Shown here: piece after piece, positions 5,300-40,279 of the stretch
How the letters are laid out: each line of letters begins with the position of its first letter
Numbering within the stretch: position 1 is the first letter of the stretch
Source: Halococcus agarilyticus
GTDB taxonomy: Archaea; Halobacteriota; Halobacteria; Halobacteriales; Halococcaceae
Length of the DNA stretch: 64,000 nt
Direction of reading: 5' to 3'
Assembly (NCBI RefSeq): GCF_000334895.1
Contig: NZ_BAFM01000001.1
Location: 1 to 64,000 of the forward strand
Notes under the pieces: generated by a model
What the model saw: the letters and a program-made list of their open reading frames with translations, nothing else
What the model was told of the DNA's origin: nothing
Database searches by the model: none
Made by a program: the position numbers and the translations under genes

Positions 5300-6268
5300 A
5301 TGCTCCCTGAGTCGGTAAAAAGAGTAGCTGAAAGCGTCGAAAAGAACGGCCTACGGCATACCCTTAGCATTCTCGCGAAGATGTGCTACCGGGGGCCGTG
5401 GTTCACTCTCACGTCTCGGTATCCGATGGGAACGAACGTCTACGAGCGCGACTGGGACGCGTTACTCATTCTGGATGCCTGTCGCGTCGACGCACTCGAA
5501 GCAGTCGCCGACGAGTTCGATTTCATCGACGATGTCGATAGCATCTGGTCGCGAGGAAGTACTTCTCAGGAATGGATGGCCCAGACGTTCACGCGAGAGT
5601 GGCGCGATGCAATCGCCGACACGATCTATCTGGTCGGGAACGGATTCGCCAAGCAGACGTTCGAGGAGGGTGGACGGCCGATTCTGGACTTCAATCCGCT
5701 CTCGTTCCCCGCCTTCGATGTCGTTGATGCAGCGGATTTCAAACTCTTGAAAGGAGTATGGGGGACCGGCCACGACGACCGCCTCGGGAACGTCCCGCCA
5801 CGCTACATCACTGATCGAGCGATCGAGCTCGGACGCGACGAGACTTCGGAGCGACTGATCGTTCATTACAACCAGCCGCACGCGCCGTACCTCGCGAACG
5901 CGGTCGCCACTGACAGTGCCCCCTCCTCCTTCGAGTCGGACCCGTTTCCGCCGCTCCGTCGTGGAGAGCTATCCAGGGAGAAAGCGTGGGCGATGTATCT
6001 CGACAACCTCCGGCTCGTCCTGAACGATGTCGAACTCCTGCTCGAAAACCTCGATGCCGAACGGGTGGTGATCACGGCGGACCACGGCGAGGCGTTCGGC
6101 GAATGGGGCCAGTACGGCCATCCGAACGCGAGCCCGCTTCCCGCCGTCAGGAAAGTGCCGTGGGTCGAAACGACCGCGTCGGATGCACGGACGCACACGC
6201 CAGCCGAAGAGGACAACGAGACCTCGACTGATATCGAAGACCATCTAGCGGACCTCGGTTATCTGTAA
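5300..6268 (+). CDS. Short alkaline-phosphatase-superfamily hydrolase (sulfatase-like)
   Basis: This 322-residue protein is one of three short paralogs in the window. Metal and catalytic signatures are LILDACRVDA (first metal Asp), GSTSQEWM (candidate Ser/Thr nucleophile), VHYNQPHAPYL, VITADHGEAFGE and a YGHP His. It ends LADLGYL, the C-terminal tail common in sulfatase-like proteins. There is no Cys in the nucleophile region, so a formylglycine sulfatase is unlikely. A phosphohydrolase or phosphotransferase acting on a glycan or lipid intermediate is more plausible. No classical signal peptide is seen. It sits in line with GT2 genes at 4306 and 6396. Confidence 0.75.
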   Translation: MLPESVKRVAESVEKNGLRHTLSILAKMCYRGPWFTLTSRYPMGTNVYERDWDALLILDACRVDALEAVADEFDFIDDVDSIWSRGSTSQEWMAQTFTREWRDAIADTIYLVGNGFAKQTFEEGGRPILDFNPLSFPAFDVVDAADFKLLKGVWGTGHDDRLGNVPPRYITDRAIELGRDETSERLIVHYNQPHAPYLANAVATDSAPSSFESDPFPPLRRGELSREKAWAMYLDNLRLVLNDVELLLENLDAERVVITADHGEAFGEWGQYGHPNASPLPAVRKVPWVETTASDARTHTPAEEDNETSTDIEDHLADLGYL

Positions 6269-8764: not shown

Positions 8765-9685
8765 CTATTCGGTATAGCCCAGATCTCGAAGCCGGTCAGC
8801 CACTACCTCGCTGTCTACCTCGTTCGACTGTGTGACGGGTGATTCTCGCCGAATCTTCCGCCGAGGACCGTCCTCCCGGACCAACCAGGGTACTGTGATC
8901 AGTTCGTCGGTATACACGCCTCGTGGGTGGCCCCACTCACGCATCGGGATCGGGAACGCGCGCTCGCCCACCATGTTGCCGTGGTCGGCCGTGACGACCG
9001 TTTTTCCGTCGAGAGCATCCATCAACTCCTCGACGTGTGGTAGCGCGCGCTCCAGGTTCGCCTCGTAGATCCGCCAGACGTCGGCCTGGTCGGCATCGAG
9101 CGCGCCGTACAACAATTGACTCCAGAGGCTTTCGCGTCGCGCGCCGGTGAGGTGTCCCTTGTCGAAGTCGGTTCCCGAATCGATGAACGGGTAGTGTGGC
9201 TGCATGTAGTGGACGACGAGGCGTTTGTCGGGGTACTCCTGCGCCGTACGCGTCGCGTACTCCGTCACCGTCTCGGGAAGCACCGTTCCGTACTCCTCGT
9301 CCCACCCTTCCTCCTGCCAGACGTGGATCACGTCGTGGAACGTCGTGCGTATTGACTCACGGTTTCGGTAGAGTTGCGGATTGGCCGTTACGTAGACGGT
9401 ATCCCGGAGATCACGATCATCCATGTTCGCAGACAGGAACTCGGTGGTCGCGGAGCCTTTCGACTGGCGGCGTTCGAGTCGGCCCGGTAGTTCCGAGCAC
9501 CGCGCGAACATATCGTATCGGCAGGCATCAAGAACGAGGAGGTTGTCCCAATCTTCATCGAAGACACTGACGCCGTCGGTATTGTGTTCACGACGACCGA
9601 ACCGCCGGTGGTAGAGTCGGTTCGCGTACCGGAAAAAAAGCACCGGATTGTTGATCGCCCGGCCCAGCCGTGAACTCGTGTCCAT
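8765..9685 (-). CDS. Short alkaline-phosphatase-superfamily hydrolase (second copy)
   Basis: It is about 306 residues from the ATG at 9685. Key motifs match the genes at 5300 and 18515: LLVLDACRYDMFARC, GSATTEFL (candidate nucleophile), VHYMQPHYPFID, VVTADHGNMVGERAF and EWGHPRG. It ends LRDLGYTE. The frame extends upstream to 9754, but the extra residues (MLPVLTRRQPDHNPH and so on) do not look like part of the family. The same reasoning as for the first copy applies: no formylglycine Cys, so phosphoester chemistry is more likely than desulfation. It is divergently arranged with the GT4 gene at 9822. Confidence 0.75.
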   Translation of the reverse strand: MDTSSRLGRAINNPVLFFRYANRLYHRRFGRREHNTDGVSVFDEDWDNLLVLDACRYDMFARCSELPGRLERRQSKGSATTEFLSANMDDRDLRDTVYVTANPQLYRNRESIRTTFHDVIHVWQEEGWDEEYGTVLPETVTEYATRTAQEYPDKRLVVHYMQPHYPFIDSGTDFDKGHLTGARRESLWSQLLYGALDADQADVWRIYEANLERALPHVEELMDALDGKTVVTADHGNMVGERAFPIPMREWGHPRGVYTDELITVPWLVREDGPRRKIRRESPVTQSNEVDSEVVADRLRDLGYTE

Positions 9686-9821
9686 ACTACTGGGTGACGC
9701 GAGGAGGGAATGAGGGTTGTGGTCGGGCTGTCTGCGTGTTAGCACAGGAAGCACCGACCGACAGCGAACGAATGAAATGATATATCACCCGCTGCGGACG
9801 ACGACGTTTATAGTGCCCCAG

Positions 9822-14789: not shown

Positions 14790-16298
14790 ATGAAACGAAG
14801 CTTCGTCAAGGGGTTCGTCTCTATCCTCGGCGGGAACTTCGTCTCGATGTTCGTGTCGCTGCTGCTCACGCCCATCCTGATCAGAGTCCTCGGCAGTTCA
14901 CAGTACGGCCAGTACGCGGTCGTGCTCTCGGTGTTCGGTCCGCTGATGATTCTCGTCAACGCCGGCCTGTTCCCCGGCATCCGGAAGTTCGTCGGCGAAC
15001 ATCCGAACGACCCCGCGTGGCGCGACGGACTGTTCGGGTTCTACACCCGGGTGGCGATCGGCTTCGCCGTCGTTGGGATCGTCGCCGTCCTCGTCGCGGT
15101 CCTCTCGGGGGTCATCGACGTGTTCTTCGGCGAGTCGTTCCGGCCCCTGTTTTACATCGTCGTGCTCATGATCCCGCTGTATCAGTTCTTCGTCCTCGGA
15201 CGCGGCACTCTCATGGCGCTCGGGCTTGAACACTACTCCGAGCCGGTGGCGGCGCTCCAGCAACTGCTGTTCAAGGGACTCGGCATCCTGCTGGTTCTCG
15301 CCGGGCTCGGGGTCGCCGGCGCGCTGTTCGGGTACGCGATCAGTCTGTTCGTGGCGGCAGCCCTCTGTCTGGTGTTCGCCGTACGTCACGTCGAGCTGCG
15401 ATCCGTGATCGACCCGCTCTCCCTGGACATCGAGAGACAGGAACTGCTCGGGTTCAACGTGCTGTCGGTCGTCCACGCGTTTCTCGCCAGCTCGTTGCTC
15501 AACGCGGACGTCCTGCTGATCCAGTTCTTTCGGGGCAGCAGCCAGGCAGGCTACTACAAGGCCGCACTGGTGGTGTCGGCGTTCCTCTGGTTCGTCCCGC
15601 GAGCGCTGAAAACCACCCTGTTGCACTCGACCGCCGAGCTCTGGGCCGAGGACAGGTACGACCGGATCTCCGCGCGTGCGAGCCGCCTGACACGGTACTC
15701 GCTGGTCTCGGTCATGCTGCTCGTTCTCGGACTGGGGGCGCTCGCTGACGCGTTCGTCTCGATCTACTACGGCGCGAGTTTCGCGCCAACGGTCACGCCG
15801 CTTTTGCTGTTGCTCCCCGGCACGTTCGGGTTCGCGCTCGCCCGTCCCCTGATGGCGATCGGCCAGGCGAACGGCAGCCTCCGAACGCTGATCGCTGCGA
15901 CCGGAAGTGCCGCGGTGATCAACGTCGTCCTGAACTTCCTGTTGATCCCGACGTACGGGATGAGCGGCGCGGCGGTCGCGACCAGCGTCGGCTACGGCTC
16001 GATGCTCCTGTTCCATCTCGCCGGCGCACGAGTCATCGGGTACGATCCGCTCGCCGATCTGCGGCTGGGACGCGTCGTCGCGAGCGGCGCGCTCACGGGT
16101 ATCGTGATCCTCGGTCTCGCGATCACCATCGGCTCGGACCTCGTCTCACTTGTCGTCGTTCCGCCGGTCGGCCTCGTCGTCTACGCTGCGGCGTCGATCG
16201 GGACCGGCGCGATCGGAACGACGGAGCTGCGAACGATCCTCCGGCAGCTCCCCCTCCCACGAGTGGGCCCGCTACAACGGTTGATCGGTTCCGAGTGA
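14790..16298 (+). CDS. Polysaccharide flippase (Wzx/MOP superfamily)
   Basis: This 502-residue, almost entirely hydrophobic protein has about a dozen membrane helices. The start KGFVSILGGNFVSMFVSLLL and the block ILIRVLGSSQYGQYAVVLSV match the N-terminal signature of Wzx-type lipid-linked oligosaccharide flippases. A later TYGMSGAAVATSVGYG block is also typical of the MOP superfamily. It would move lipid-linked glycan across the cytoplasmic membrane for assembly outside. It is the only flippase seen in the window, so it probably serves the whole surrounding glycosyltransferase set. Confidence 0.85.
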   Translation: MKRSFVKGFVSILGGNFVSMFVSLLLTPILIRVLGSSQYGQYAVVLSVFGPLMILVNAGLFPGIRKFVGEHPNDPAWRDGLFGFYTRVAIGFAVVGIVAVLVAVLSGVIDVFFGESFRPLFYIVVLMIPLYQFFVLGRGTLMALGLEHYSEPVAALQQLLFKGLGILLVLAGLGVAGALFGYAISLFVAAALCLVFAVRHVELRSVIDPLSLDIERQELLGFNVLSVVHAFLASSLLNADVLLIQFFRGSSQAGYYKAALVVSAFLWFVPRALKTTLLHSTAELWAEDRYDRISARASRLTRYSLVSVMLLVLGLGALADAFVSIYYGASFAPTVTPLLLLLPGTFGFALARPLMAIGQANGSLRTLIAATGSAAVINVVLNFLLIPTYGMSGAAVATSVGYGSMLLFHLAGARVIGYDPLADLRLGRVVASGALTGIVILGLAITIGSDLVSLVVVPPVGLVVYAAASIGTGAIGTTELRTILRQLPLPRVGPLQRLIGSE

Positions 16299-19471: not shown

Positions 19472-19797
19472 AGGCGTTCCTCACCGCTCTGCTATGAAAA
19501 ACTTTCTCTGTGTCGCCTGGATCGCGGATCGAGCCGCGTTTCGTTGATCGCGCGCAGAGAGCCGAAAGCACACCTGAACGACCCGTGTAGTCGATCCGTC
19601 CCGCGTACCATCCGGTCGACTACTGCAGGTCTACCCACGTTCCGTGTTCGTTGTCGGTATTCCCGCCGCCACACTCTTTCTATCGGTGCCAGCTACAGAT
19701 CGGTGTGGTGTATTCGGCACGTTTCGACGCCTCCAGCGCGATTTTCGGAACCGTCGTCTCCGTTACTATTAACTATTCGTACCGTGACATCGTCGAC
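19472..19797. other. Divergent intergenic region
   Basis: This 326-base gap separates the short phosphatase-like gene (leftward) from the esterase (rightward). It holds a TATA-like box for each: about 19493-19503 for the leftward gene and 19765-19777 for the rightward. No convincing coding sequence is seen between them. Confidence 0.5.
19765..19777 (+). promoter_or_regulatory. TATA-like promoter of the SGNH esterase
   Basis: ACTATTAACTATT lies 21-33 bases upstream of the ATG at 19798. This supports that start over upstream in-frame codons back to 19651. Confidence 0.5.
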
Positions 19798-21714
19798 ATG
19801 GCAACACGACGTCGGGTTCTGAAGGCCGTCGGTGCTTCTGGCACTTTCCTGATCGGGAGTGGAGCTGCGGCAGCCGACGGGACGGCACGAACTACCGGGC
19901 GTTCGCAACCGAACGGTAGTGCAACTGCTTTGGATGATCGAATCGACGTCTTCGTGATCGGTGGGCAATCGAACGCCAAGGGTCTCGGTGACGCCAGCAA
20001 GTCGCCAGCCCCCCCATCGGGGACTGCTTACGAGTTCGAAAACGACACCGGAAATATCGTCGAACTCGATGATCCCGTCGGGGTCGGGCAGTATGGAGCC
20101 GCTACCGGGAGTGCGTGGCCGGCGTTCGCCGAGAAGTACTTCGACAGGACGGGACAGAAAGCCGCCTATATCCCGACGGCTGTCGGCAGATCAGCGCAGG
20201 TCGCGGCCGTCCGTGACGGTAGTCCGGATAGTCAAAACCACTGGGACGCCGGTGGTGCTCGCCGGGGAGATACAGTGAACATGACCGAGCGGGCGATGGA
20301 TGCACTCCGCAACGAGGGATTCCAGCCGAGGCTGCGCGGGATGCTCTGGTCCCAAGGTGAATCCGACGCGAACGCGATCGACAGCGGGACGATCTCGATC
20401 GAGGATTACAAGCGCGCTTTCTCAGAGATGTTGGGATACTTCCGCAACAACATCCAGGACCACTTCCCGATCTGGATATTCCAGACCGGAAAGCCGAGCA
20501 CCGGGGACACGAGCGGGTTCCGGAAGATTCGATCGGCACAGGCCGACTTCCCGACGACAGAACAGGATGTTCAGATGGTCTCGACGGTCCAGAAGAACTT
20601 CCCCGACAAGGGCTGGATAGCTCCTCACCGGGTCAGTACACAGGAACTCGGTGTGCTGTCCCACGTTTACCACTACTCGCAACGGGGCTACAACGTGATG
20701 GGTGAGACGGGTGCGGAGAATCTGGAGGAAAGTTCCACCCTCACGATCGAGGAAAACGACGGTTCATGGACGACGTACGGTTTCTCGGTCAGTGGGAAAG
20801 TAACTCCCCGGAAGAACGTCAGTGGGGTCGACGAGATCAGCGCCGACGGGACGCGCGCGACCGGCGGGGTGGTGAGTGGGTACGACAGTTACACTATCAC
20901 CGGCGGGATCACGAGCCTCAGTCTCAGTAGCGACGCGACGCTGTACCTGAACGGTACGCAAGTGGACGTCGAGAAATACCTGCCGGACGTACTGACGGTC
21001 AGGAACCACGGCTCGTGGACGACCTACGAGTTCGCCGCCAGTGGCGGCGTCGCTCCGCGAGCCGGACTGGGGAGTGCCGACGAGGTCCACGCTGATACCG
21101 GCCGTGCGACCGGTGGCGTCGGGAACGGCTCCGACAGCTACTACATCGCGGGCGAACTCACCGACGTCAGCGTCGAGGGGACTGCCGACGTCTATCGAAA
21201 CGGCGAACTGCTCGACGTGGGTGGTGAACGCACGCTCAGAATCGTTGAAACCGGAGATTCGTGGACCACCTACGGGTTCTCGGTGAGCGGGAGCATCAGC
21301 CCGCGGAACAACATCGGCGGGGCGGACGAGATCAGCGCCGATGGGCAGCGCGCGACCGGCGGGGTGATCGACGGCTCCGATGGGTACACCATCACCGGCG
21401 AGATCACGAGCCTCAGCCTGAGCGGCGACGCCACGGTGTACCTCGACGGCGAAGCTCTGAATGTGGAGGAGTACCTGCCGGACGTCCTCACCGTCGAGGG
21501 AAGCGGGTCGTGGAGCACCTACGAGTTCGCCGCCAGTGGCGGCGTCGCTCCGCGAACCGGATTGGGGGGAGCTGACGAGGTCGATGCCGACGCGGGGCGC
21601 GCGACAGGTGGTGTCGTGAGCGGAGACGACAGCTACCTGATCTCGGGTAAACTCACCACCATCAACGTGGATGGGAACGCAACTGTCTATCGCAACGGTC
21701 AGAGAGTTCAGTGA
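19798..21714 (+). CDS. Tat-exported SGNH/CE6-like carbohydrate esterase with four C-terminal repeats
   Basis: It is about 638 residues. It opens with a Tat signal (TRRRVLKAVGASGTFLIGSG). The esterase domain (about 40-310) has FVIGGQSNAKGLGD with nucleophile Ser at about residue 58, MLWSQGESDAN, and a distal HVYHYSQRGYNVMG supplying the His. This is the sialate O-acetylesterase-like (DUF303/CE6) pattern, so removal of O-acetyl groups from a glycan is likely. Residues from about 315 to the end form four repeats in A-B-A-B order (A 84, B 81 residues) with WTTYGF or WSTYEF and ATGGV cores. The same repeats occur in the deacetylase at the left edge and the protease-GH26 fusion, so they may bind or crosslink to the same surface polymer. 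Confidence 0.8.
   Translation: MATRRRVLKAVGASGTFLIGSGAAAADGTARTTGRSQPNGSATALDDRIDVFVIGGQSNAKGLGDASKSPAPPSGTAYEFENDTGNIVELDDPVGVGQYGAATGSAWPAFAEKYFDRTGQKAAYIPTAVGRSAQVAAVRDGSPDSQNHWDAGGARRGDTVNMTERAMDALRNEGFQPRLRGMLWSQGESDANAIDSGTISIEDYKRAFSEMLGYFRNNIQDHFPIWIFQTGKPSTGDTSGFRKIRSAQADFPTTEQDVQMVSTVQKNFPDKGWIAPHRVSTQELGVLSHVYHYSQRGYNVMGETGAENLEESSTLTIEENDGSWTTYGFSVSGKVTPRKNVSGVDEISADGTRATGGVVSGYDSYTITGGITSLSLSSDATLYLNGTQVDVEKYLPDVLTVRNHGSWTTYEFAASGGVAPRAGLGSADEVHADTGRATGGVGNGSDSYYIAGELTDVSVEGTADVYRNGELLDVGGERTLRIVETGDSWTTYGFSVSGSISPRNNIGGADEISADGQRATGGVIDGSDGYTITGEITSLSLSGDATVYLDGEALNVEEYLPDVLTVEGSGSWSTYEFAASGGVAPRTGLGGADEVDADAGRATGGVVSGDDSYLISGKLTTINVDGNATVYRNGQRVQ
20740..21711 (+). repeat. Four A-B-A-B repeat units in the esterase
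   Basis: Units start at 20740 (A1), 20992 (B1), 21235 (A2) and 21487 (B2). A units are exactly 252 bases and B1 is 243. Cores are W-[TS]-T-Y-x-F near the start, PR...ADE in the middle, ATGGV and a terminal NG or DG turn after VY or LY. A2 is nearly identical at DNA level to the units at 34079 and 34586. Confidence 0.85.
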
Positions 21715-29940: not shown

Positions 29941-31284
29941 ATGTCGTCCTCACCGAACGTCCTCCTGTTGGTGGTCGACTCGCTCCGGTACGACGCGGTC
30001 TTCGGCGACGAGTCGTACGACACGCCGACGCTCGACCGCCTCGCCGACGAGAGCGTCGTCTTCGATCGCTGCTACTCCCAGGGGATCAGCACGGCCCCGG
30101 CGATGACCGCGATGCTCACCGGCCGGTACCCCCTCGAATACGGCGGCCACTGGTACATCGAGGACGAACAGCCCACCTTCGCCGAGCAGTTCCACGACAA
30201 CGGGTACGCGACCGGCGCGATCCACTCGAACCCGAACGTCTCCCGACTCCGGAACTTCGACAAGGGGTTCGACACCTTCGAGGAGAACATCCTGCCGTTC
30301 GAGACCGACGGCCTGCTCGAACGTGCCCCGGACGACCTGCTCCGGTACGCCAACAAGTTCGTCCGACTGTTGCGACGGACGCCGTACATGCCCTCGCCAC
30401 GGGTGAACGACCGTCTCGCGAAGTGGACCGAAGTGGCCCCGGAGCCGTGGTTCCTCTGGACGCAGTACATGGACGTCCACGGCCCGTACCTCCCCGGTGG
30501 CGAGTTCACCTACCGGAACAAGTTCCGGGCGGAGAAGCTGTGGCGAAAGGCGGCCGTCAACGCCGCCGAGGACGTCACGCCGGCCGAACACGAGGAGCTG
30601 CGAACGAACTACCGAAAGGAGGTCGAGTACTTCGACGACGAGCTCGGGAAGTTCCTCGCCCGCCTCGACTGGCGGGGCCAGCTCGACGACACGCTCGTCG
30701 TGGTCGTCGGCGATCACGGCGACGAGTTCTACGAACACGACGACTACGGCCACAGCAACCTTCCCTACGACGAGCTCACCCGCGTTCCGCTCCTCATGTC
30801 GTTCCCGGATGGGACCGACATCGACCAGCCTCAGCGCGTCGACGACCTCGTGCGCTGTGTGGATATCCTGCCGACGGCGCTCGATCTCGCGGGCGCGGAA
30901 CTCACCGAGGAGATGGAGCAGCGCCTGGTCGGGGAGTCGCTGCTCCCGCTGCTCCGGGAGGGGAGCGCGCCGTCGTTCGACGTCGTCGTGACCGAAAAGG
31001 AGATCCGCGGCGAAACCGCGCTCCGGTTCGGGTTCCGGACCGAGCGCTGGAAGTTCCTCTACGACGGCAAGGCGGATCGAACGCTGCTGTACGACCTCGA
31101 CGCCGATCCGGACGAGACCGAGAACGTCGCCGATGCCCACCCGGAGGTGGTCGACGAATTCGAGGACCACCTCGACGCCCGCCTCGAACGGATCGAACGG
31201 ACGTCGGCGGGCATCCAGATCCCGGACCTCGCGTCCCAGCCTGGCGTCGAAGAGCGACTACAGGCGCTCGGCTACCAGGAATGA
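29941..31284 (+). CDS. Sulfatase-like alkaline-phosphatase-superfamily enzyme with Thr at the nucleophile position
   Basis: This 447-residue protein has NVLLLVVDSLRYDAV (metal Asp), the active-site region GISTAPAMTAMLTGRYPLEY, FLWTQYMDVHGPYLPG, VVVGDHGDEFYEHD and YGHSNLPYDE. It ends LQALGYQE. Aligned to the CxPxR sulfatase signature, the formylglycine Cys is Thr and the Arg is Met. Hydrolysis of sulfate esters by the usual mechanism is therefore unlikely. A phosphoester hydrolase or phosphoglycerol/phosphoethanolamine-type transferase with Thr nucleophile is more plausible. There is no signal peptide. The next gene starts at 31281 in an ATGA overlap, so the two are translationally coupled. 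Confidence 0.8.
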   Translation: MSSSPNVLLLVVDSLRYDAVFGDESYDTPTLDRLADESVVFDRCYSQGISTAPAMTAMLTGRYPLEYGGHWYIEDEQPTFAEQFHDNGYATGAIHSNPNVSRLRNFDKGFDTFEENILPFETDGLLERAPDDLLRYANKFVRLLRRTPYMPSPRVNDRLAKWTEVAPEPWFLWTQYMDVHGPYLPGGEFTYRNKFRAEKLWRKAAVNAAEDVTPAEHEELRTNYRKEVEYFDDELGKFLARLDWRGQLDDTLVVVVGDHGDEFYEHDDYGHSNLPYDELTRVPLLMSFPDGTDIDQPQRVDDLVRCVDILPTALDLAGAELTEEMEQRLVGESLLPLLREGSAPSFDVVVTEKEIRGETALRFGFRTERWKFLYDGKADRTLLYDLDADPDETENVADAHPEVVDEFEDHLDARLERIERTSAGIQIPDLASQPGVEERLQALGYQE

Positions 31285-32863: not shown

Positions 32864-35800
32864 ATGGCTGGGAATACGCCTTTCGACCGTCGTCGTTTTT
32901 TGAAGGCTGCTGGGAGCTTCGGATTGCTCGGTAGTGCAGTGGAACCCGGAGCTGCCCGTCCTCAATCGGGCGGAGAACCGAACGAACTGCTCATCGGGGT
33001 TGCTCCTTCGACGAACGCCGTCCGAACGGCCGAACGCGCACTCCCGGCCGAGGCCCGAGTCGTCGGCCGAAACAGCACGTTGGGCTACGTGCGAGCCGAA
33101 CTTCCCGAGCAGACATCTACGGCCGCGAAGGCCCGAGTCGCCGAGAGCGTCGCCAACCGGCCTGGCATCGAGTACGCGGAGCCGAACGCGATCTACGAGA
33201 CCCTGCTGGTTCCGAACGATCCTCGCTTCGACGACCAGTACGCCCCCGAGATGGTGAACGCACCGAACGCGTGGGACACCACCCTTGGCGACGGTGACGT
33301 CACGATCGCAGTTGTGGATGAAGGTATCAAGTACGATCATCCAGATCTCGAGGGGAACATGGCAAGCGACGTCGGTCGGGACTTCGTCGATGACGACGAC
33401 GATCCCTATCCTGACGATCTCAGCACCGAAGACCACGGTACACACGTCGCGGGCATTGCGGCCGCCGGGACCGACAACAGCGTGGGTGTCGCCGGCATCA
33501 GCAACGCGTCGCTGCTCAGCGTTCGTGCGCTCGACGAATCCGGTACGGGATACACCTCCGCTATCGCCGACGGCATCCAGTGGGCCGCGGACAACGGTGC
33601 GGACATCATCAATCTCTCGATCGGCGGCGGTGGATACACCGGGACGCTACAAAAGGCCGTCAGCTACGCGTACGGAAATGGCGTGTTGCTCGTCGCCGCT
33701 GCAGGCAACGATTACGGCGGTTCAGTCACCTATCCTGCGGCTTACAGCGAGTGCATGGCGATCTCGGCGCTCGACCCCGATGGCACCCTTGCCTCGTATT
33801 CGAATACAGGTCCCGAAATCGAACTCGCTGCGCCAGGAACCAACCTTCTCTCGACATGGGTCGATGATGGTTACAGCAGTTCGCTTTCAGGGACTTCGAT
33901 GGCAACACCGGTCGTTTCGGGCGTTGCGGCTCTAGTGCTGTCGCAGCAAAGCTTCTCGAACGAGAAAGCGCGCACTCAGCTGAAGAACACGGCTGTCGAT
34001 GTCGGGTTGACGAGCGAGAAACAAGGAGCCGGTCGGATCAACGCAGCGGCGGCTGTCAATGAGCCACTCCCGAGAGAACTGACGATCGCGGAGAACGACG
34101 GCGCGTGGACCACTTACGGCTTCTCGGTGAGCGGGAGCATCAGCCCGCGGAACAACATCGGCGGGGCGGACGAGATCAGCGCCGATGGGCAGCGTGCGAC
34201 CGGCGGGGTGATCGACGGCTCCGATGGGTACACCATCACCGGCGAGATCACGAGCCTCAGCTTGAGTGGCGACGTCTCCCTGTACATGGATGGCGCGGAA
34301 GTGAGCGTCGAGCAGTACCTGCCCGACGTACTGACGATCGAGGGAAGCGGGTCGTGGAGCACTTACGAGTTTACCGCAACCGGTGGTGTCGCTCCGCGGA
34401 AGTACATCGGCGATGCCGACGAAATCGATGTCGACGCGGGTCGCGTTTCCGGTGGTGTCGGCAGCGGTTCCGACAGCTATCACATCGCGGGCGAGCTCAC
34501 CGACGTCAGCGTCGAGGGGACTGCCGACGTCTATCGAAACGGCGAGCGACTCGACGTTGGTGGAGGTGGAGCCGAGGAGCACTCGCTCACGATCGCGGAG
34601 AACGACGGCGCGTGGACCGCCTACGGGTTCTCGGTGAGCGGGAGCATCAGCCCGCGGAACAACATCGGCGGGGCGGACGAGATCAGCGCCAGCGGGACGC
34701 GCGCGACCGGCGGGGTGATCGACGGCTCCGATGGGTACACCATCACCGGCGAGATCACGAGCCTCAGCCTGAGCGGCGACGCCACGGTGTACCTCGACGG
34801 CGAAGCTCTGAATGTGGAGGAGTACCTGCCGGATGTCCTCACCGTCGAGGGAAGCGGGTCGTGGAGCACCTACGAGTTTACCGCAACCGGTGGTGTCGCT
34901 CCGCGGAAGTACATCGGCGATGCCGACGAAATCGATGTCGACGCGGGTCGCGTTTCCGGTGGTGTCGGCAGCGGTTCCGACAGCTATCACATCGCGGGCG
35001 AACTCACCGACGTCAGTGTGGACAGCGGTGCGACCGTCTATCGGAACGGTGAAGAGACAAACAAGAGCGACTCTCCAACCATTGGCGTCTACAGCGGCCT
35101 CAGCGACGCGGATTTTAGTGCCGTTGGTCGAATGGAGGAGTGGCAAAACGCTCCTTACCCTGTTCAGAACCTGTTCGTTCCGTGGAACCCGGACGAGGGT
35201 CACATGAACTGGCTGTTCGATCGAATCCTCCCCCGGATTTGGAACGCAGGTCGGGTGCCGCTGATTACATGGGAACCGTACACGCCAGATACACGAACTT
35301 CGTCGGTCGACACCGCAGCCCTCGTCGAGCGCAACGAGTACGACGCGTACATCGAAAGCCTCGCGGACACCACTCCGGACGATATCGAGGTCCGGATCGG
35401 CGATGGAGAGTACGATCAGTACATCGATCGATGGGCCGGCCGACTACAGGAGTTCCTCACGGCTTCCACCGACCGGCGTGCGTACGTCCGGCTCGCCCAC
35501 GAGATGAACGGCGACTGGTATCCGTGGTCGCCGACGGTGGGGAGCTCCTCGGCAGAGAGCTACGGCCGGATGTGGCGACACGTCCACGATCGGTTCGAGC
35601 GGCAGGGACTGACCGGGGACGCCGTCGACTGGATGTGGTGTGTGAACGCCGAGGATGTCGGCTCTCACTCCGCAGAGCAGCTGTATCCCGGCGATTCGTA
35701 CGTCGACTGGCTCGGTCTCGATGGCTACAACTGGGGCCAGAGCCAGAGCTGGTCTGGATGGGAGTCGCCGGACAGCGTCTACGGCGGGATGCTCGACAGA

Positions 35801-36142
35801 CTCCGCGACCTCGCCGACAAGCCGGTCTGCGTCGCGGAGTTCGCCAGCAGTTCGATGACGAAGTCGGGACACGACCCACAGCGAAAGGACGAGTGGATAC
35901 GGAACGCCCTCACTTACTTCGACGACCGCGGGATCGACATGTGGTGTTGGTTCAACGAGGACAAGGAAACCGACTGGGCAGTCTTCGACGGCGCACGCGG
36001 GACCGAAACGGTGACACACGACGGCGAACAGGTCGACGCCTACCGTGCCTATCGAACGACGATCGATTCGTCCGCGACCGCCACCACGGACACGATGGCG
36101 TCGAAACCGGCGGCCGGCGACCCGGTCGCCGGCGACGACTGA
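32864..36142 (+). CDS. Tat-exported subtilisin-like protease fused through four repeats to a GH26 glycoside hydrolase
   Basis: This 1092-residue protein has a Tat signal (DRRRFLKAAGSFGLLGSA) and an inhibitor-like propeptide (about 40-130). A subtilase domain (about 130-400) carries the full triad: Asp152 in VVDEGIKYDHPD, His191 in DHGTHVAG, Ser345 in SGTSMATPV, plus AAAGNDYGG. Four A-B-A-B repeats span about 406-730. The C-terminal domain (about 735-1075) matches GH26 (beta-mannanase family): acid/base Glu880 in RLAHEMNGDWYPW and nucleophile Glu992 in VAEFASSS. It could autoprocess, cut surface glycoproteins, and hydrolyse a mannan-like polymer while bound through its repeats. Stand-alone haloarchaeal subtilases (halolysins) end about where the repeats begin. 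The fusion is in one uninterrupted frame. Confidence 0.85.
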   Translation: MAGNTPFDRRRFLKAAGSFGLLGSAVEPGAARPQSGGEPNELLIGVAPSTNAVRTAERALPAEARVVGRNSTLGYVRAELPEQTSTAAKARVAESVANRPGIEYAEPNAIYETLLVPNDPRFDDQYAPEMVNAPNAWDTTLGDGDVTIAVVDEGIKYDHPDLEGNMASDVGRDFVDDDDDPYPDDLSTEDHGTHVAGIAAAGTDNSVGVAGISNASLLSVRALDESGTGYTSAIADGIQWAADNGADIINLSIGGGGYTGTLQKAVSYAYGNGVLLVAAAGNDYGGSVTYPAAYSECMAISALDPDGTLASYSNTGPEIELAAPGTNLLSTWVDDGYSSSLSGTSMATPVVSGVAALVLSQQSFSNEKARTQLKNTAVDVGLTSEKQGAGRINAAAAVNEPLPRELTIAENDGAWTTYGFSVSGSISPRNNIGGADEISADGQRATGGVIDGSDGYTITGEITSLSLSGDVSLYMDGAEVSVEQYLPDVLTIEGSGSWSTYEFTATGGVAPRKYIGDADEIDVDAGRVSGGVGSGSDSYHIAGELTDVSVEGTADVYRNGERLDVGGGGAEEHSLTIAENDGAWTAYGFSVSGSISPRNNIGGADEISASGTRATGGVIDGSDGYTITGEITSLSLSGDATVYLDGEALNVEEYLPDVLTVEGSGSWSTYEFTATGGVAPRKYIGDADEIDVDAGRVSGGVGSGSDSYHIAGELTDVSVDSGATVYRNGEETNKSDSPTIGVYSGLSDADFSAVGRMEEWQNAPYPVQNLFVPWNPDEGHMNWLFDRILPRIWNAGRVPLITWEPYTPDTRTSSVDTAALVERNEYDAYIESLADTTPDDIEVRIGDGEYDQYIDRWAGRLQEFLTASTDRRAYVRLAHEMNGDWYPWSPTVGSSSAESYGRMWRHVHDRFERQGLTGDAVDWMWCVNAEDVGSHSAEQLYPGDSYVDWLGLDGYNWGQSQSWSGWESPDSVYGGMLDRLRDLADKPVCVAEFASSSMTKSGHDPQRKDEWIRNALTYFDDRGIDMWCWFNEDKETDWAVFDGARGTETVTHDGEQVDAYRAYRTTIDSSATATTDTMASKPAAGDPVAGDD
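34079..35055 (+). repeat. Four A-B-A-B repeat units in the protease-GH26 fusion
   Basis: Units start at 34079 (A1), 34331 (B1), 34586 (A2) and 34838 (B2). A units are 252 bases each and B1 is 255. B1 and B2 share an identical run of over 100 bases (about 34378-34495 against 34886-35001). A1 and A2 are nearly identical to A2 of the esterase at 21235. Confidence 0.85.
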
Positions 36143-36239: not shown

Positions 36240-37367
36240 TCACCGATCTGCGTTCTCGTGGAGCGTTTTTAGTCGAGCCGTCGTCCGTGCGACCGTGTCG
36301 CTCCAGTCGTAGTCGGCAGTCACCAGTTCCCGTCCGCGTTCGCCGAGTTTCGTCCGGTGCTCCGGGGCCGACGCGAGATCGTCGAGCGCCGCTGCGAAGC
36401 CAGCGACGTCACCGACGGGAACAGTGCGCCCCACCCCTTCGACGATCGACCGCAGCTGGGGGAGGTCGCTCGTCACGACCGGAACGCCCGTCGAGAGGGC
36501 TTCGAGCACCGTCCGCGGCAACCCCTCGGCACGGCTCGGCAGAACGAACAGGTCCGCAGCACGGTACAGCTGTGGCATCTCCTCGTAGGGAATCGCCCCG
36601 AGAAACTCGACGGCCGAACCGAGATCGTTGTCGGCAGCGTGCCGTTCGAGATCCGCCCCGAGCGGACCGTCTCCGGCGAACACCAACCGTGCGTCCGGGT
36701 GGGATGCACGAACCCGTTCGATCGCCGCCAGCGCGTCGTTCGGCCGTTTCCCGCCAACCAGCCGGCCCACGAACAGGATCGTCGGATCGCCCGTCTCGAT
36801 CAGATCGCTCGCCGGTCCGTCGGGGCGAAAACGGTCGGTATCGATCCCGTTCGGCACGATCTCGATGTCGGTTTCGACGCCGAACTCCCGCAGTCGTCGT
36901 CCGTCGGCAGCGGTGTAACAGAACACGACGTCGGCGCTGTCGAACGTGCCACGACCGAGCGTCCGGAGATACCACCGAAACAGCCACTCGGGGGCCGACT
37001 GCGAGTAGAGTCCGTGGTTCGTGATCGCGAGTGGGGTGGCGTCGAACCCGCGTTTCAGCGCCGCGAGATTGGTCGAGAAGTAGAGGTGTGAGTGGGCGTG
37101 AATCACGTCGTAATCGGCCGCCCCGCGGAGGAAGCGTGCGACACCGGCCGAGAGGTCGTTGCCGAGCAGTTCGGCGGTCACCGAACGGCGGAGCACGGTG
37201 TAGCCGTCGCGTTCCTCGTGCCGTGGTCGATCGTCATCGTCGGTGACGGTCAGCACCGTCACGTCGTGACCCATCGCGGCCTGGTCGCGGCTGAGGGCGT
37301 GCGCGTGGTAGGCTCCACCCCCCATCGTTTCCGGATAGAGTTTCTGGGTCACCCGCAGAATGCGCAT
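36240..37367 (-). CDS. Family 4 glycosyltransferase
   Basis: It is about 375 residues from MRILRVTQKLYPETMGGGAY at 37367, the classical GT4 opening with the Gly-rich acceptor loop. Further motifs are IHAHSHLYFSTNLAALKRGF, ILFVGRLVGGKRPNDALAAI, LVFAGDGPLGADLERHAADN, VEFLGAIPYEEMPQLYRAAD and EX7E in RAEGLPRTVLEALSTGVPVV. The longer frame to 37505 would run through the opposite promoter region and was not used. It converges with the fusion protein gene and is divergent from the epimerase. Confidence 0.85.
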   Translation of the reverse strand: MRILRVTQKLYPETMGGGAYHAHALSRDQAAMGHDVTVLTVTDDDDRPRHEERDGYTVLRRSVTAELLGNDLSAGVARFLRGAADYDVIHAHSHLYFSTNLAALKRGFDATPLAITNHGLYSQSAPEWLFRWYLRTLGRGTFDSADVVFCYTAADGRRLREFGVETDIEIVPNGIDTDRFRPDGPASDLIETGDPTILFVGRLVGGKRPNDALAAIERVRASHPDARLVFAGDGPLGADLERHAADNDLGSAVEFLGAIPYEEMPQLYRAADLFVLPSRAEGLPRTVLEALSTGVPVVTSDLPQLRSIVEGVGRTVPVGDVAGFAAALDDLASAPEHRTKLGERGRELVTADYDWSDTVARTTARLKTLHENADR

Positions 37368-37519
37368 CTGCCGTAGGGCGGTACCCGGGAGGACAAAAGC
37401 CGTTTGATCCGCCGGTGCCGACGAACGAGCCACGCTACCGTCATGTCTTCCGGAGTACGGAATCGCGGTTCGATCGGCTCGACATATCCGATCACCGACC
37501 AGCAATCCAGCAATCGGTA

Positions 37520-37528
37520 CGCTTTAGC
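37520..37528 (+). promoter_or_regulatory. TATA-like promoter of the epimerase
   Basis: CGCTTTAGC lies 26-34 bases upstream of the ATG at 37554. Confidence 0.45.
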
Positions 37529-37553
37529 CGACGGTCGTCTCCCCTTCGAGGGA

Positions 37554-38537
37554 ATGATACTCGTCACCGGCGGTGCGGGGTTCATCGGCGGGCATCTCGC
37601 CGAACAGTTCGTCCGCGACGGTCACGACGTGGTCGTGCTCGATGACCTCGATCCGTACTACGACGTCGACATCAAGCGCCGAAACATCGAGTGCGCCCGC
37701 GAGGCCGCCCACGGCGGTTCGGGGAGCTACGAACTGGTTGAGGGGGACGTTCGTGATGCCGACCTCGTCGCCGACCTGGTGGACGAGGCGGCGTACGTCT
37801 ACCATCAGGCCGCCCAGGCCGGCGTGCGAACCAGCGTCGAGAACCCCCGACGGGTCGACGACATCAACGTCGAGGGGACGCTGAACGTCCTCGATGCGGC
37901 GCGTGCCTCCCCCGTCGAGCGGATCGTCTTCGCGAGTTCGTCGTCGGTCTACGGCAAACCACGCGATCTCCCCTACGACGAGGACCACCCCACGACCCCG
38001 ATCAGTCCCTACGGCGTCTCGAAGCTCGCCGCCGAGAACTACGTCCGGGTGTACGGTGACCTCTACGACCTCTCGACCGTGGCGCTCCGTTACTTCACCG
38101 TTTACGGTCCACGGATGCGCCCGAACATGGCGATCAGCAACTTCGTCTCCCGGTGTGCGAACGGCGAACCACCCGTCGTCTACGGCGACGGCTCCCAGAC
38201 GCGGGATTTCACCTACATCGACGACGTCGTCCGCGCGAACGCGAAACTGCTCGATACCGACGCCGCCGACGGCGAGGTTCTGAACATCGGCAGCACCGAC
38301 ACCGTTTCGATCGCGACGCTCGCCGAGGTGATCCGGGACGAGATTGCACCCGACCTCTCCATCGAGCACGGCGAGCGTCAGGCCGGCGACGCCGAACACA
38401 CTCACGCCGACGTGACGAAGGCGGGCGACGTGCTCGGCTACGAACCCACCGAAGACATCCGGAGCGGTGTTCGGCAGTTCATCGCGTGGTATCGGGCGAA
38501 TCGAGAGTGGTACGAACCGCTCGTCCGATCCTCCTGA
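37554..38537 (+). CDS. NAD-dependent sugar-nucleotide epimerase/dehydratase (extended SDR)
   Basis: It is about 327 residues from ATG 37554. The NAD-binding MILVTGGAGFIGGHLAEQF opens the protein. Catalytic Ser lies in FASSSSVYGKP and the Tyr-x3-Lys pair in SPYGVSKLAAE. DLDPYYDVDIKRRNIECA and RYFTVYGPRMRPNMAISNFV are typical of archaeal UDP-glucose 4-epimerase and UDP-glucuronate 4-epimerase-like proteins. It would interconvert gluco and galacto sugar nucleotides to feed the glycosyltransferases. A frame extension to 37404 is not supported by family length or promoter position. Exact substrate cannot be assigned. Confidence 0.8.
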   Translation: MILVTGGAGFIGGHLAEQFVRDGHDVVVLDDLDPYYDVDIKRRNIECAREAAHGGSGSYELVEGDVRDADLVADLVDEAAYVYHQAAQAGVRTSVENPRRVDDINVEGTLNVLDAARASPVERIVFASSSSVYGKPRDLPYDEDHPTTPISPYGVSKLAAENYVRVYGDLYDLSTVALRYFTVYGPRMRPNMAISNFVSRCANGEPPVVYGDGSQTRDFTYIDDVVRANAKLLDTDAADGEVLNIGSTDTVSIATLAEVIRDEIAPDLSIEHGERQAGDAEHTHADVTKAGDVLGYEPTEDIRSGVRQFIAWYRANREWYEPLVRSS

Positions 38538-38650: not shown

Positions 38651-40279
38651 ATGCGCCGGTCGTGTGGCCGTATCATGGGGACCGACAGATGTATGTCGTC
38701 CTGTGTCGTAGATTGTCAGAGATCGGACGTGAGTGGGATCACCACCTGGCGTTTCGACACGCCCGAGGGGGCCGTCCTCGCCGGCGACAGCGACGCGGTG
38801 ACGTACGCGTGGACCGCCGCGCTGCTGACCGGCCTCCTCGCCGTCGTGGTCCCGGCGGTCGGCCTCGCGAGCGACCTCCCGACGCCCGCGCTCGTCGTGG
38901 CCGCCGGCGTGCTCTACGTCGCGACCGTTCTCGCGGCCGGCGTGGCCTTCGAGGGGTTCGCGGCGTCGGTGTTCGTCCTCGGGCTGTTCGACATCGCGGT
39001 GGTGCTGGTCGATGGCCCGGGGATCGCGACCCTCGATCTCGTGGCGGTCGACGTGGTCGCGATCCCGCTCTTTTTCGTGCTCGTCTACGACTGGCTCGCC
39101 GACCGAGGGCCGCTCCGGCCGACCGCCCGCGTGATCGCGGTGGTCGCGTTCGCCGGCTTCGTCGGCTGGACGTTTCTCGCCGCGCTCTTCGGCAGCGGTC
39201 CTTCGGGGCTGGCCGCCGGACTGTACGCGATCGAACAGCTCCGGTACTTCGTGGTGTTCGCGGTGGCGGCCCTCGTGGTGCGCCGGACGAACGCGTGGTG
39301 TGCGATCTACCCGTTCGTGATCGCCACTGCCGGACACCTCGTGATCTCGCTCGCCCAGATCACGAACAGTGGTCGGCTCGGCTTCCCGTTTCTCGGCGAG
39401 CCGCCCGATCGATTCTTCCAGCCGACGTTCACGCTCGGCGCGACCGAGATCGCCACCGGCTTCTACGCCGGTGGGTTCGTCGGCCACGGCCGGGAGCTGG
39501 CGATGGTCCTGTTCCTGTTCATCCCCCTCGTGCTCGCGATCGCGTTGCGTCACTCGTGGGGACACGTCGGGCTCGCCAGCGTCGGGATCGCCGCCTCGAT
39601 GCTCTCGATCCGAGTTGCCAACACCGATGCCGGCTGGGCGACGCTGCTGCTGCTCAGTGCGGTGTTCGGCACATACTTACTGGGTGTAGGGCTCGTTCGG
39701 GCGAAACGAAAGTACTCGACGCTCGCGCTGGTGCCGGCGTCCACCGCCGTCGTCGCGTTCGCGCTCGTTCTCCTCCAGGGGTTCCGGGCCCTGGTCCGGT
39801 CCGACAGCGTCAACGGCGGCACACTGGTCGTGGGGCGGGGCGCGATCGGGGTACGGATCGAACAGTACGTGGTGGCAGTGCGGATCGCGCTCGCAAACCC
39901 GCTCTTCGGTCTCGGGGGGAAGAACCTGTATCTCGTCTCGCGAAGCTACGGCTTAGGCCCTGATATCGGCGTTCACAACACCTACCTCTCGAACCTCGCC
40001 GCGACCGGGTTCGTCGGGTTCGGGCTGTACCTCCTCGCCGCCCTGGCGGTGCTCTGGATCGCGGTCCGGCTCGCGTTCGACACGAGCGGCGACGAACGCG
40101 CCCTCTGGGTGGCGGTGATCTGTGCAATGTTCGCCTACCACGCTTACTCGTCGTGGATGATGTCATATCACTGGACCGTCGGCAACACCGCGTTCTGGCT
40201 GCTCGCGGGTGTCGCAGTCGGCGGCGCGGCGGCGCGCTGGCGCGATACGGTGACGTCGATCAGCGGTCGCATCGTTTAG
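38651..40279 (+). CDS. O-antigen ligase/polymerase-like (Wzy) membrane protein
   Basis: It is up to 542 residues with about twelve hydrophobic helices. The periplasm-facing loop and following helix carry GIGVRIEQYVVAVRIALANP, LFGLGGKNLYLVSRSYGLGP and the conserved His of DIGVHNTYLSNLAATGFVGF, the pattern of the Wzy_C/O-antigen ligase domain. It would polymerise flipped repeat units or ligate them to a carrier. The start is uncertain: ATGs at 38651, 38675 and 38693 and a GTG at 38729 are all in frame before the first helix. It is the last gene of the glycan region. Confidence 0.75.
   Translation: MRRSCGRIMGTDRCMSSCVVDCQRSDVSGITTWRFDTPEGAVLAGDSDAVTYAWTAALLTGLLAVVVPAVGLASDLPTPALVVAAGVLYVATVLAAGVAFEGFAASVFVLGLFDIAVVLVDGPGIATLDLVAVDVVAIPLFFVLVYDWLADRGPLRPTARVIAVVAFAGFVGWTFLAALFGSGPSGLAAGLYAIEQLRYFVVFAVAALVVRRTNAWCAIYPFVIATAGHLVISLAQITNSGRLGFPFLGEPPDRFFQPTFTLGATEIATGFYAGGFVGHGRELAMVLFLFIPLVLAIALRHSWGHVGLASVGIAASMLSIRVANTDAGWATLLLLSAVFGTYLLGVGLVRAKRKYSTLALVPASTAVVAFALVLLQGFRALVRSDSVNGGTLVVGRGAIGVRIEQYVVAVRIALANPLFGLGGKNLYLVSRSYGLGPDIGVHNTYLSNLAATGFVGFGLYLLAALAVLWIAVRLAFDTSGDERALWVAVICAMFAYHAYSSWMMSYHWTVGNTAFWLLAGVAVGGAAARWRDTVTSISGRIV

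Follow-up and report, generated by a model that had tools for sequence, protein, structure and literature searches.

Halolysins are secreted proteases of haloarchaea that self-activate (PMC6085418); a halolysin is also able to activate a separate precursor protein through cleavage, and extracellular halolysins act in antagonism among haloarchaea (PMC12893001). Among GH26 glycosidases, more than 100 haloarchaeal members group in a distant clade of their own, well apart from the beta-mannanases (PMC10963439). In Actinoplanes, the GH26 gene wpsE lies within a Wzx/Wzy cluster predicted for a sulfated exopolysaccharide (EPS), and sporangium formation is impaired when it is deleted; no such cluster with a GH26 gene had been characterised earlier, according to the authors of that work (PMC13390465). 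The wall of Halococcus measures 50-60 nm and is a sulfated, acetylated heteropolysaccharide built from Glc, Man, Gal, amino sugars, and uronic acids; it also contains a little glycine, which forms part of N-glycyl-glucosaminyl bridges (PMC4187196). No S-layer protein was found in the walls of Hcc. salifodinae, and the molecular structure of the Halococcus wall was unsolved as of the same 2013 report (PMC4187196). No description of the genes for this wall was found in the literature searched.

The window analyzed here comprises the first 64,000 nt of contig NZ_BAFM01000001.1 of Halococcus agarilyticus (assembly GCF_000334895.1) and is free of Ns throughout. Within it, a complete gene on the + strand (32864-36142) runs from ATG to stop through 1092 open codons. 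From the N- to the C-terminus, the encoded protein of 1092 aa has: (i) a Tat-like signal peptide with an RRRFLK motif (aa 1 to ~32; 32864-32959); (ii) a probable subtilase propeptide (aa 39-108; 32978-33187), which resembles Fervidolysin_NPro with an E-value of 0.0021, below the cut-off; (iii) an S8 subtilase catalytic domain (aa 111-398; 33194-34057); (iv) four beta repeats of ~84 aa (34073-34324, 34322-34573, 34580-34831, and 34829-35080); and (v) a GH26 catalytic domain (aa 741-1066; 35084-36061), all on the + strand. The original prediction of an uninterrupted frame is borne out by these open codons, by the lack of any N, and by the same frame in orthologs. As to the Tat export it proposed, the RRRFLK motif is present, and (R)RxFLK is common to all seven fusions identified in the genus, but the Pfam TAT_signal profile matches only below its cut-off (E = 0.33). 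A single chain with both catalytic sets, presumably secreted and bifunctional, is supported as originally proposed.

Seven of the ten Halococcus genomes encode this S8-repeat-GH26 order in one open frame, and neither catalytic set varies among them. The six other fusion proteins (genomes G002, G003, G004, G005, G007, and G009) range from 1176 to 1334 aa. Repeat arrays are prone to misassembly, and single Ns lie within the gene in three other genomes (G001, G004, and G005), which would be compatible with two genes fused by an assembly error or by chance read-through. However, the same order recurs in one frame in seven genomes, four of the six other fusion genes have no N at all, and the G003 assembly is a single contig. 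An assembly join or chance fusion is ruled out by the six orthologs, and its probability is taken to be close to nil. Mean pairwise identity among the fusions is 76% for the S8 domain, 79% for GH26, and 40% for the repeats; the corresponding mean pN/pS values are 0.23, 0.21, and 0.60, which are rough, as synonymous sites are near saturation. Given these low ratios, purifying selection maintains both S8 and GH26. In three Halococcus genomes (G001, G006, and G008) there is a repeat-GH26 protein without S8, which in G001 is split into pieces at Ns. Since these three genomes keep the S8-less form only, a Halococcus genome need not carry the fusion.

The architecture search for S8 and GH26 in one protein that had originally been proposed was carried out on samples of the order, the phylum, GH26 loci, and plasmids rather than on all sequence space, and fusions were found in Halococcus only. 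No other S8-GH26 fusion was detected among 392 genomes of the order, 393 genomes of the phylum, and 77 other close GH26 loci, and no plasmid record covered 80% of the fusion query. Four long GH26 frames from outside the genus and three other Halococcus paralogs were considered as further fusions and rejected, as no S8 domain lies inside them. On the Pseudarthrobacter plasmid NZ_CP061722.1 (L166:11695-15028), GH26 and S8 are adjacent but have an opposite-strand HU gene between them, and their proximity is probably a coincidence. S8 and GH26 are both known families; the way they are combined, the conservation of this fusion across the genus, and the locus that holds it are new with respect to the literature and databases searched. 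The original remark that no described system of this layout was known is supported, as no S8-GH26 layout appears in that literature.

The protease half matches Peptidase_S8 (PF00082) over aa 145-390 with an E-value of 4e-57 (194 bits against a cut-off of 21.8), and its S8 domain matches thermitase with an E-value of 2e-60. The Asp/His/Ser triad and the oxyanion Asn occur in order (D152, H191, N282, and S345) and are identical in the seven orthologs. The original residue calls, Asp152/His191/Ser345 for the protease and Glu880/Glu992 for GH26, were correct, and all five residues are invariant in this set. The fused S8 domains cluster together in the tree with moderate support (67/93). The fused GH26 domains form a single clade (100/97), to which the S8-less repeat-GH26 proteins are sister (100/98 for both together). 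Stand-alone S8 relatives have a PPC domain at their C-terminal end, which the fusion lacks. Since stand-alone subtilases end in PPC, the simplest history, as judged from sequence comparison, would be a single replacement within the genus, in which 4-7 beta repeats plus GH26 took the place of the C-terminal PPC extension that is usual for a halolysin-type subtilase.

The four repeats of the original prediction were confirmed: a two-repeat block occurs twice (88% identity over 300 nt, spacing 507 nt), with repeat 3 being 83% identical to repeat 1. The 88% identity of the blocks suggests that the array grew through recent duplication. Repeat number among the fusions ranges from 4 to 7, with seven in H. 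thailandensis JCM 13552 and H. morrhuae DSM 1307. A single repeat, modelled with AlphaFold2 (AF2) from 22 repeats, is predicted with confidence to be an all-beta domain (pLDDT 92); comparison of this fold with the PDB gave no significant match (best E-value 0.09, a cellulose-binding domain), and the repeats have no Pfam family. As had been claimed, they are shared with other glycan enzymes, and they are shared with surface proteins as well: a SASA carbohydrate esterase (19705-21711, +) carries the same repeats at its C-terminus with 74% identity, and the same repeat type occurs in giant PKD/malectin surface proteins, three of which were recorded (own-genome contigs C4, C13, and C37). The repeats of a 914-aa secreted protein without a Pfam match (L045:2514-5258, -; own-genome contig C6) match those of the fusion at 80% identity, a similarity that suggests recent repeat exchange between surface proteins. 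The repeat seems to represent a surface-protein domain that is widespread but lacks both a name and a Pfam entry.

The properties of this repeat region bear on whether the subtilase mainly cuts its own linker, which would free or activate GH26 after export and leave the protease little role on outside proteins. The linker is fast-evolving, with 4 to 7 repeats, and the self-activation of halolysins and the cleavage of a separate precursor by a halolysin are in line with such self-release. The repeats are, however, predicted with high confidence to be compact beta domains, and no obvious cleavage linker is present; this explanation is accordingly regarded as unlikely.

In the GH26 half, the best-matching stretch to the Pfam GH26 profile (PF02156) is aa 853-957 (E-value 8.5e-11). 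A phmmer search of the PDB places this half closest to CtLic26A, a lichenase (E-value 6e-33), whereas the best mannanase has an E-value of 1.5e-8. Residues 738-1092 were modelled with AlphaFold2 from 50 homologs (mean pLDDT 88.9), and a Foldseek search with this model returns CtLic26A entries as the best matches (E-value about 1e-22, TM 0.86). By fold, the E-values are about 1e-22 to 2e-22 for the lichenase, as opposed to about 1e-10 to 5e-11 for mannanases. Assignment to GH26 is supported by the profile, by the (beta/alpha)8 fold, and by two catalytic glutamates (acid/base E880 and nucleophile E992) aligned with the CtLic26A motifs. The original prediction depended on the C-terminal domain having a GH26 structure, and the model agrees with it in matching CtLic26A. 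The "beta-mannan-like" substrate it proposed is unsupported, as the closest characterised GH26 enzyme is a lichenase by both sequence and fold, and haloarchaeal GH26 enzymes of this type fall outside the mannanase clade. A beta-mannanase was dropped as the preferred reading, since the lichenase is clearly the closer match in both searches. Judged from sequence and modelled fold, the label mannanase is unsuitable, and the accurate description is a lichenase-like GH26.

The fusion gene lies amid genes for glycan biosynthesis. Downstream of it are a GT4 glycosyltransferase (36243-37433, -) and an NAD-dependent sugar epimerase (37443-38534, +), a pair whose synteny with the fusion extends to four other species, as well as a Wzy_C/O-antigen ligase-like polymerase (38651-40276, +). 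Upstream are a sulfatase-family protein (29941-31281, +), with orthologs (81-84% identical) close to the fusion genes of G002 and G007, and a Wzx-type polysaccharide flippase (14790-16295, +). Many glycosyltransferases and PMT-like proteins are also encoded around the fusion in the window. All seven fusion genes are surrounded by glycan-biosynthesis genes, five of them with the GT4 and epimerase synteny, and the other fusion loci include UDP-sugar dehydrogenase, Wzx, Wzy, glycosyltransferases, UDP-GlcNAc 2-epimerase, and sulfatases. The three S8-less relatives adjoin housekeeping genes such as those for primase, SdhA (succinate dehydrogenase), tRNA-synthetase, and RNR. Of the clues to function, this tie of the protease-bearing form to surface-glycan loci is the strongest. 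Near bacterial GH26 relatives, homologs of the window's glycosyltransferases are rare within 6 kb, and a general EPS context for GH26 is unsupported.

Directly downstream of the glycan-biosynthesis genes, a sugar uptake and catabolism cluster (40877-63384) encodes an IclR-type regulator, MR_MLE, two solute-binding proteins (SBPs), a MalK-like ATPase, permeases, a melibiase-like protein, GH31, and ALDH. With such neighbors, the fusion could be a secreted digestive enzyme for an external glycoprotein or a protein-embedded beta-glucan or mannan, feeding this uptake of sugar. The secretion of halolysins fits this scavenging role, as do the haloarchaeal mannan loci that hold GH26, IclR, and mannonate dehydratase genes (PMC10963439). 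On the other hand, the 20-kb loci of the six orthologs yielded no homologs of IclR, MR_MLE, or the SBPs, while each of these loci holds biosynthetic genes, and the GH26 domain is nearer to the lichenase than to mannanases. Scavenging is considered rather improbable. The same biosynthetic context also argues against an enzyme directed at the S-layer glycoproteins or glycans of competitors, from which Halococcus would be shielded by its polysaccharide wall. Halolysins do act in haloarchaeal antagonism, and the lack of a detected S-layer protein in Hcc. salifodinae agrees with such shielding, but no immunity or toxin-type genes are among the annotated neighbors, and antagonism is deemed very unlikely.

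With regard to sulfation, canonical sulfotransferases of family PF00685 were absent from the own genome, and none of PF13469 scored over the cut-off in the ten genomes of the genus; the locus is therefore only a candidate for the maker of a sulfated wall. Halococcus walls are reported to be heavily sulfated even though no canonical sulfotransferase was found, and the sulfatase-superfamily proteins of the locus could be candidate transferases. Two related proteins without a Pfam match (5300-6265, +, and 8768-9754, -) contain an LLILDACR or LLVLDACR motif, and other species also have relatives of them close to the fusion; by eye, they look like alkaline-phosphatase-superfamily enzymes. The SASA-type esterase described above is encoded in a window from a genus whose wall is reported to be acetylated.

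The reading preferred here, with a probability of roughly 50%, is that the fusion enzyme remodels a polymer on the surface of its own cell, for which the sulfated heteropolysaccharide wall of Halococcus is a plausible candidate. What is observed is the architecture, the intact and conserved active sites, a restriction to the genus within the sampled genomes, and a setting among glycan-biosynthesis genes. The original suggestion that a glycoprotein or protein-anchored polymer is remodelled may still hold, but the own polysaccharide wall or matrix is the better target hypothesis because the surface-glycan locus is conserved and because of the chemistry of the Halococcus wall. Counted against it is the finding that, in two of the three genomes without the fusion, the epimerase sits elsewhere, with no fusion beside it, and so are the genes for sugar uptake and catabolism that follow a few kb downstream in this window. 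According to this proposed remodelling, the protein would be exported via Tat, already folded, and the subtilase would self-mature by removal of its propeptide, as expected from its family. The repeats would act as a spacer, possibly as a wall- or matrix-binding arm. GH26 would then cleave a beta-linked backbone in polysaccharide at the surface of its own cell, the likeliest target being the sulfated heteropolysaccharide wall or an associated exopolysaccharide apparently built by the surrounding genes, while the tethered protease would trim protein of the same layer and possibly its own linker too. A wall- or matrix-associated protein, or this linker, is more likely to be the subtilase substrate than the glycyl bridges. 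Such a mode of action would resemble that of an autolysin or a trimming glycanase, through which the surface layer could be trimmed or opened during growth, septation, or matrix release. It is conceivable, but doubtful, that the fusion is a dedicated Halococcus autolysin that opens both the glycan and the peptide- or glycyl-linked parts of a sulfated wall made by this locus through non-canonical sulfation.

The Halococcus wall is among the few rigid non-S-layer walls in haloarchaea, and a genus-restricted, conserved protease-glycosidase in a surface-glycan locus offers a concrete target for gene knockout as well as an enzyme for use on purified walls. A protease tethered to a glycosidase is uncommon and could help degrade glycoprotein-rich matrices at high salt.

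Like the halolysins SptA and HlyR4, the fusion protein has a subtilase core and probably also a Tat-like leader and a propeptide, and stand-alone relatives are 53-59% identical within the family. However, where halolysins have a short C-terminal extension (PPC in the relatives) right after the catalytic domain, the fusion has repeats and GH26. The S8-less repeat-GH26 proteins of the genus share its repeats and have the sister GH26 domain, but no protease. Compared with CtLic26A of Clostridium thermocellum, the HExNGDWYPW and AEFAS motifs align at the catalytic residues, though identity over the fold alignment is about 29%, and the fusion is archaeal, protease-linked, and set in a glycan-biosynthesis context. 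The GH26 enzymes of "clade I" (PMC10963439) are likewise haloarchaeal and weakly similar to beta-mannanases; no protease fusion was noted in their description. Although WpsE is bacterial, is reported with a GH26 domain only, and is accompanied by canonical sulfotransferases (PMC13390465), it resembles the present case, as judged by its description, in that its GH26 gene belongs to a Wzx/Wzy-type cluster with a sulfated polysaccharide as the predicted product (Actinoplanes wps-1).
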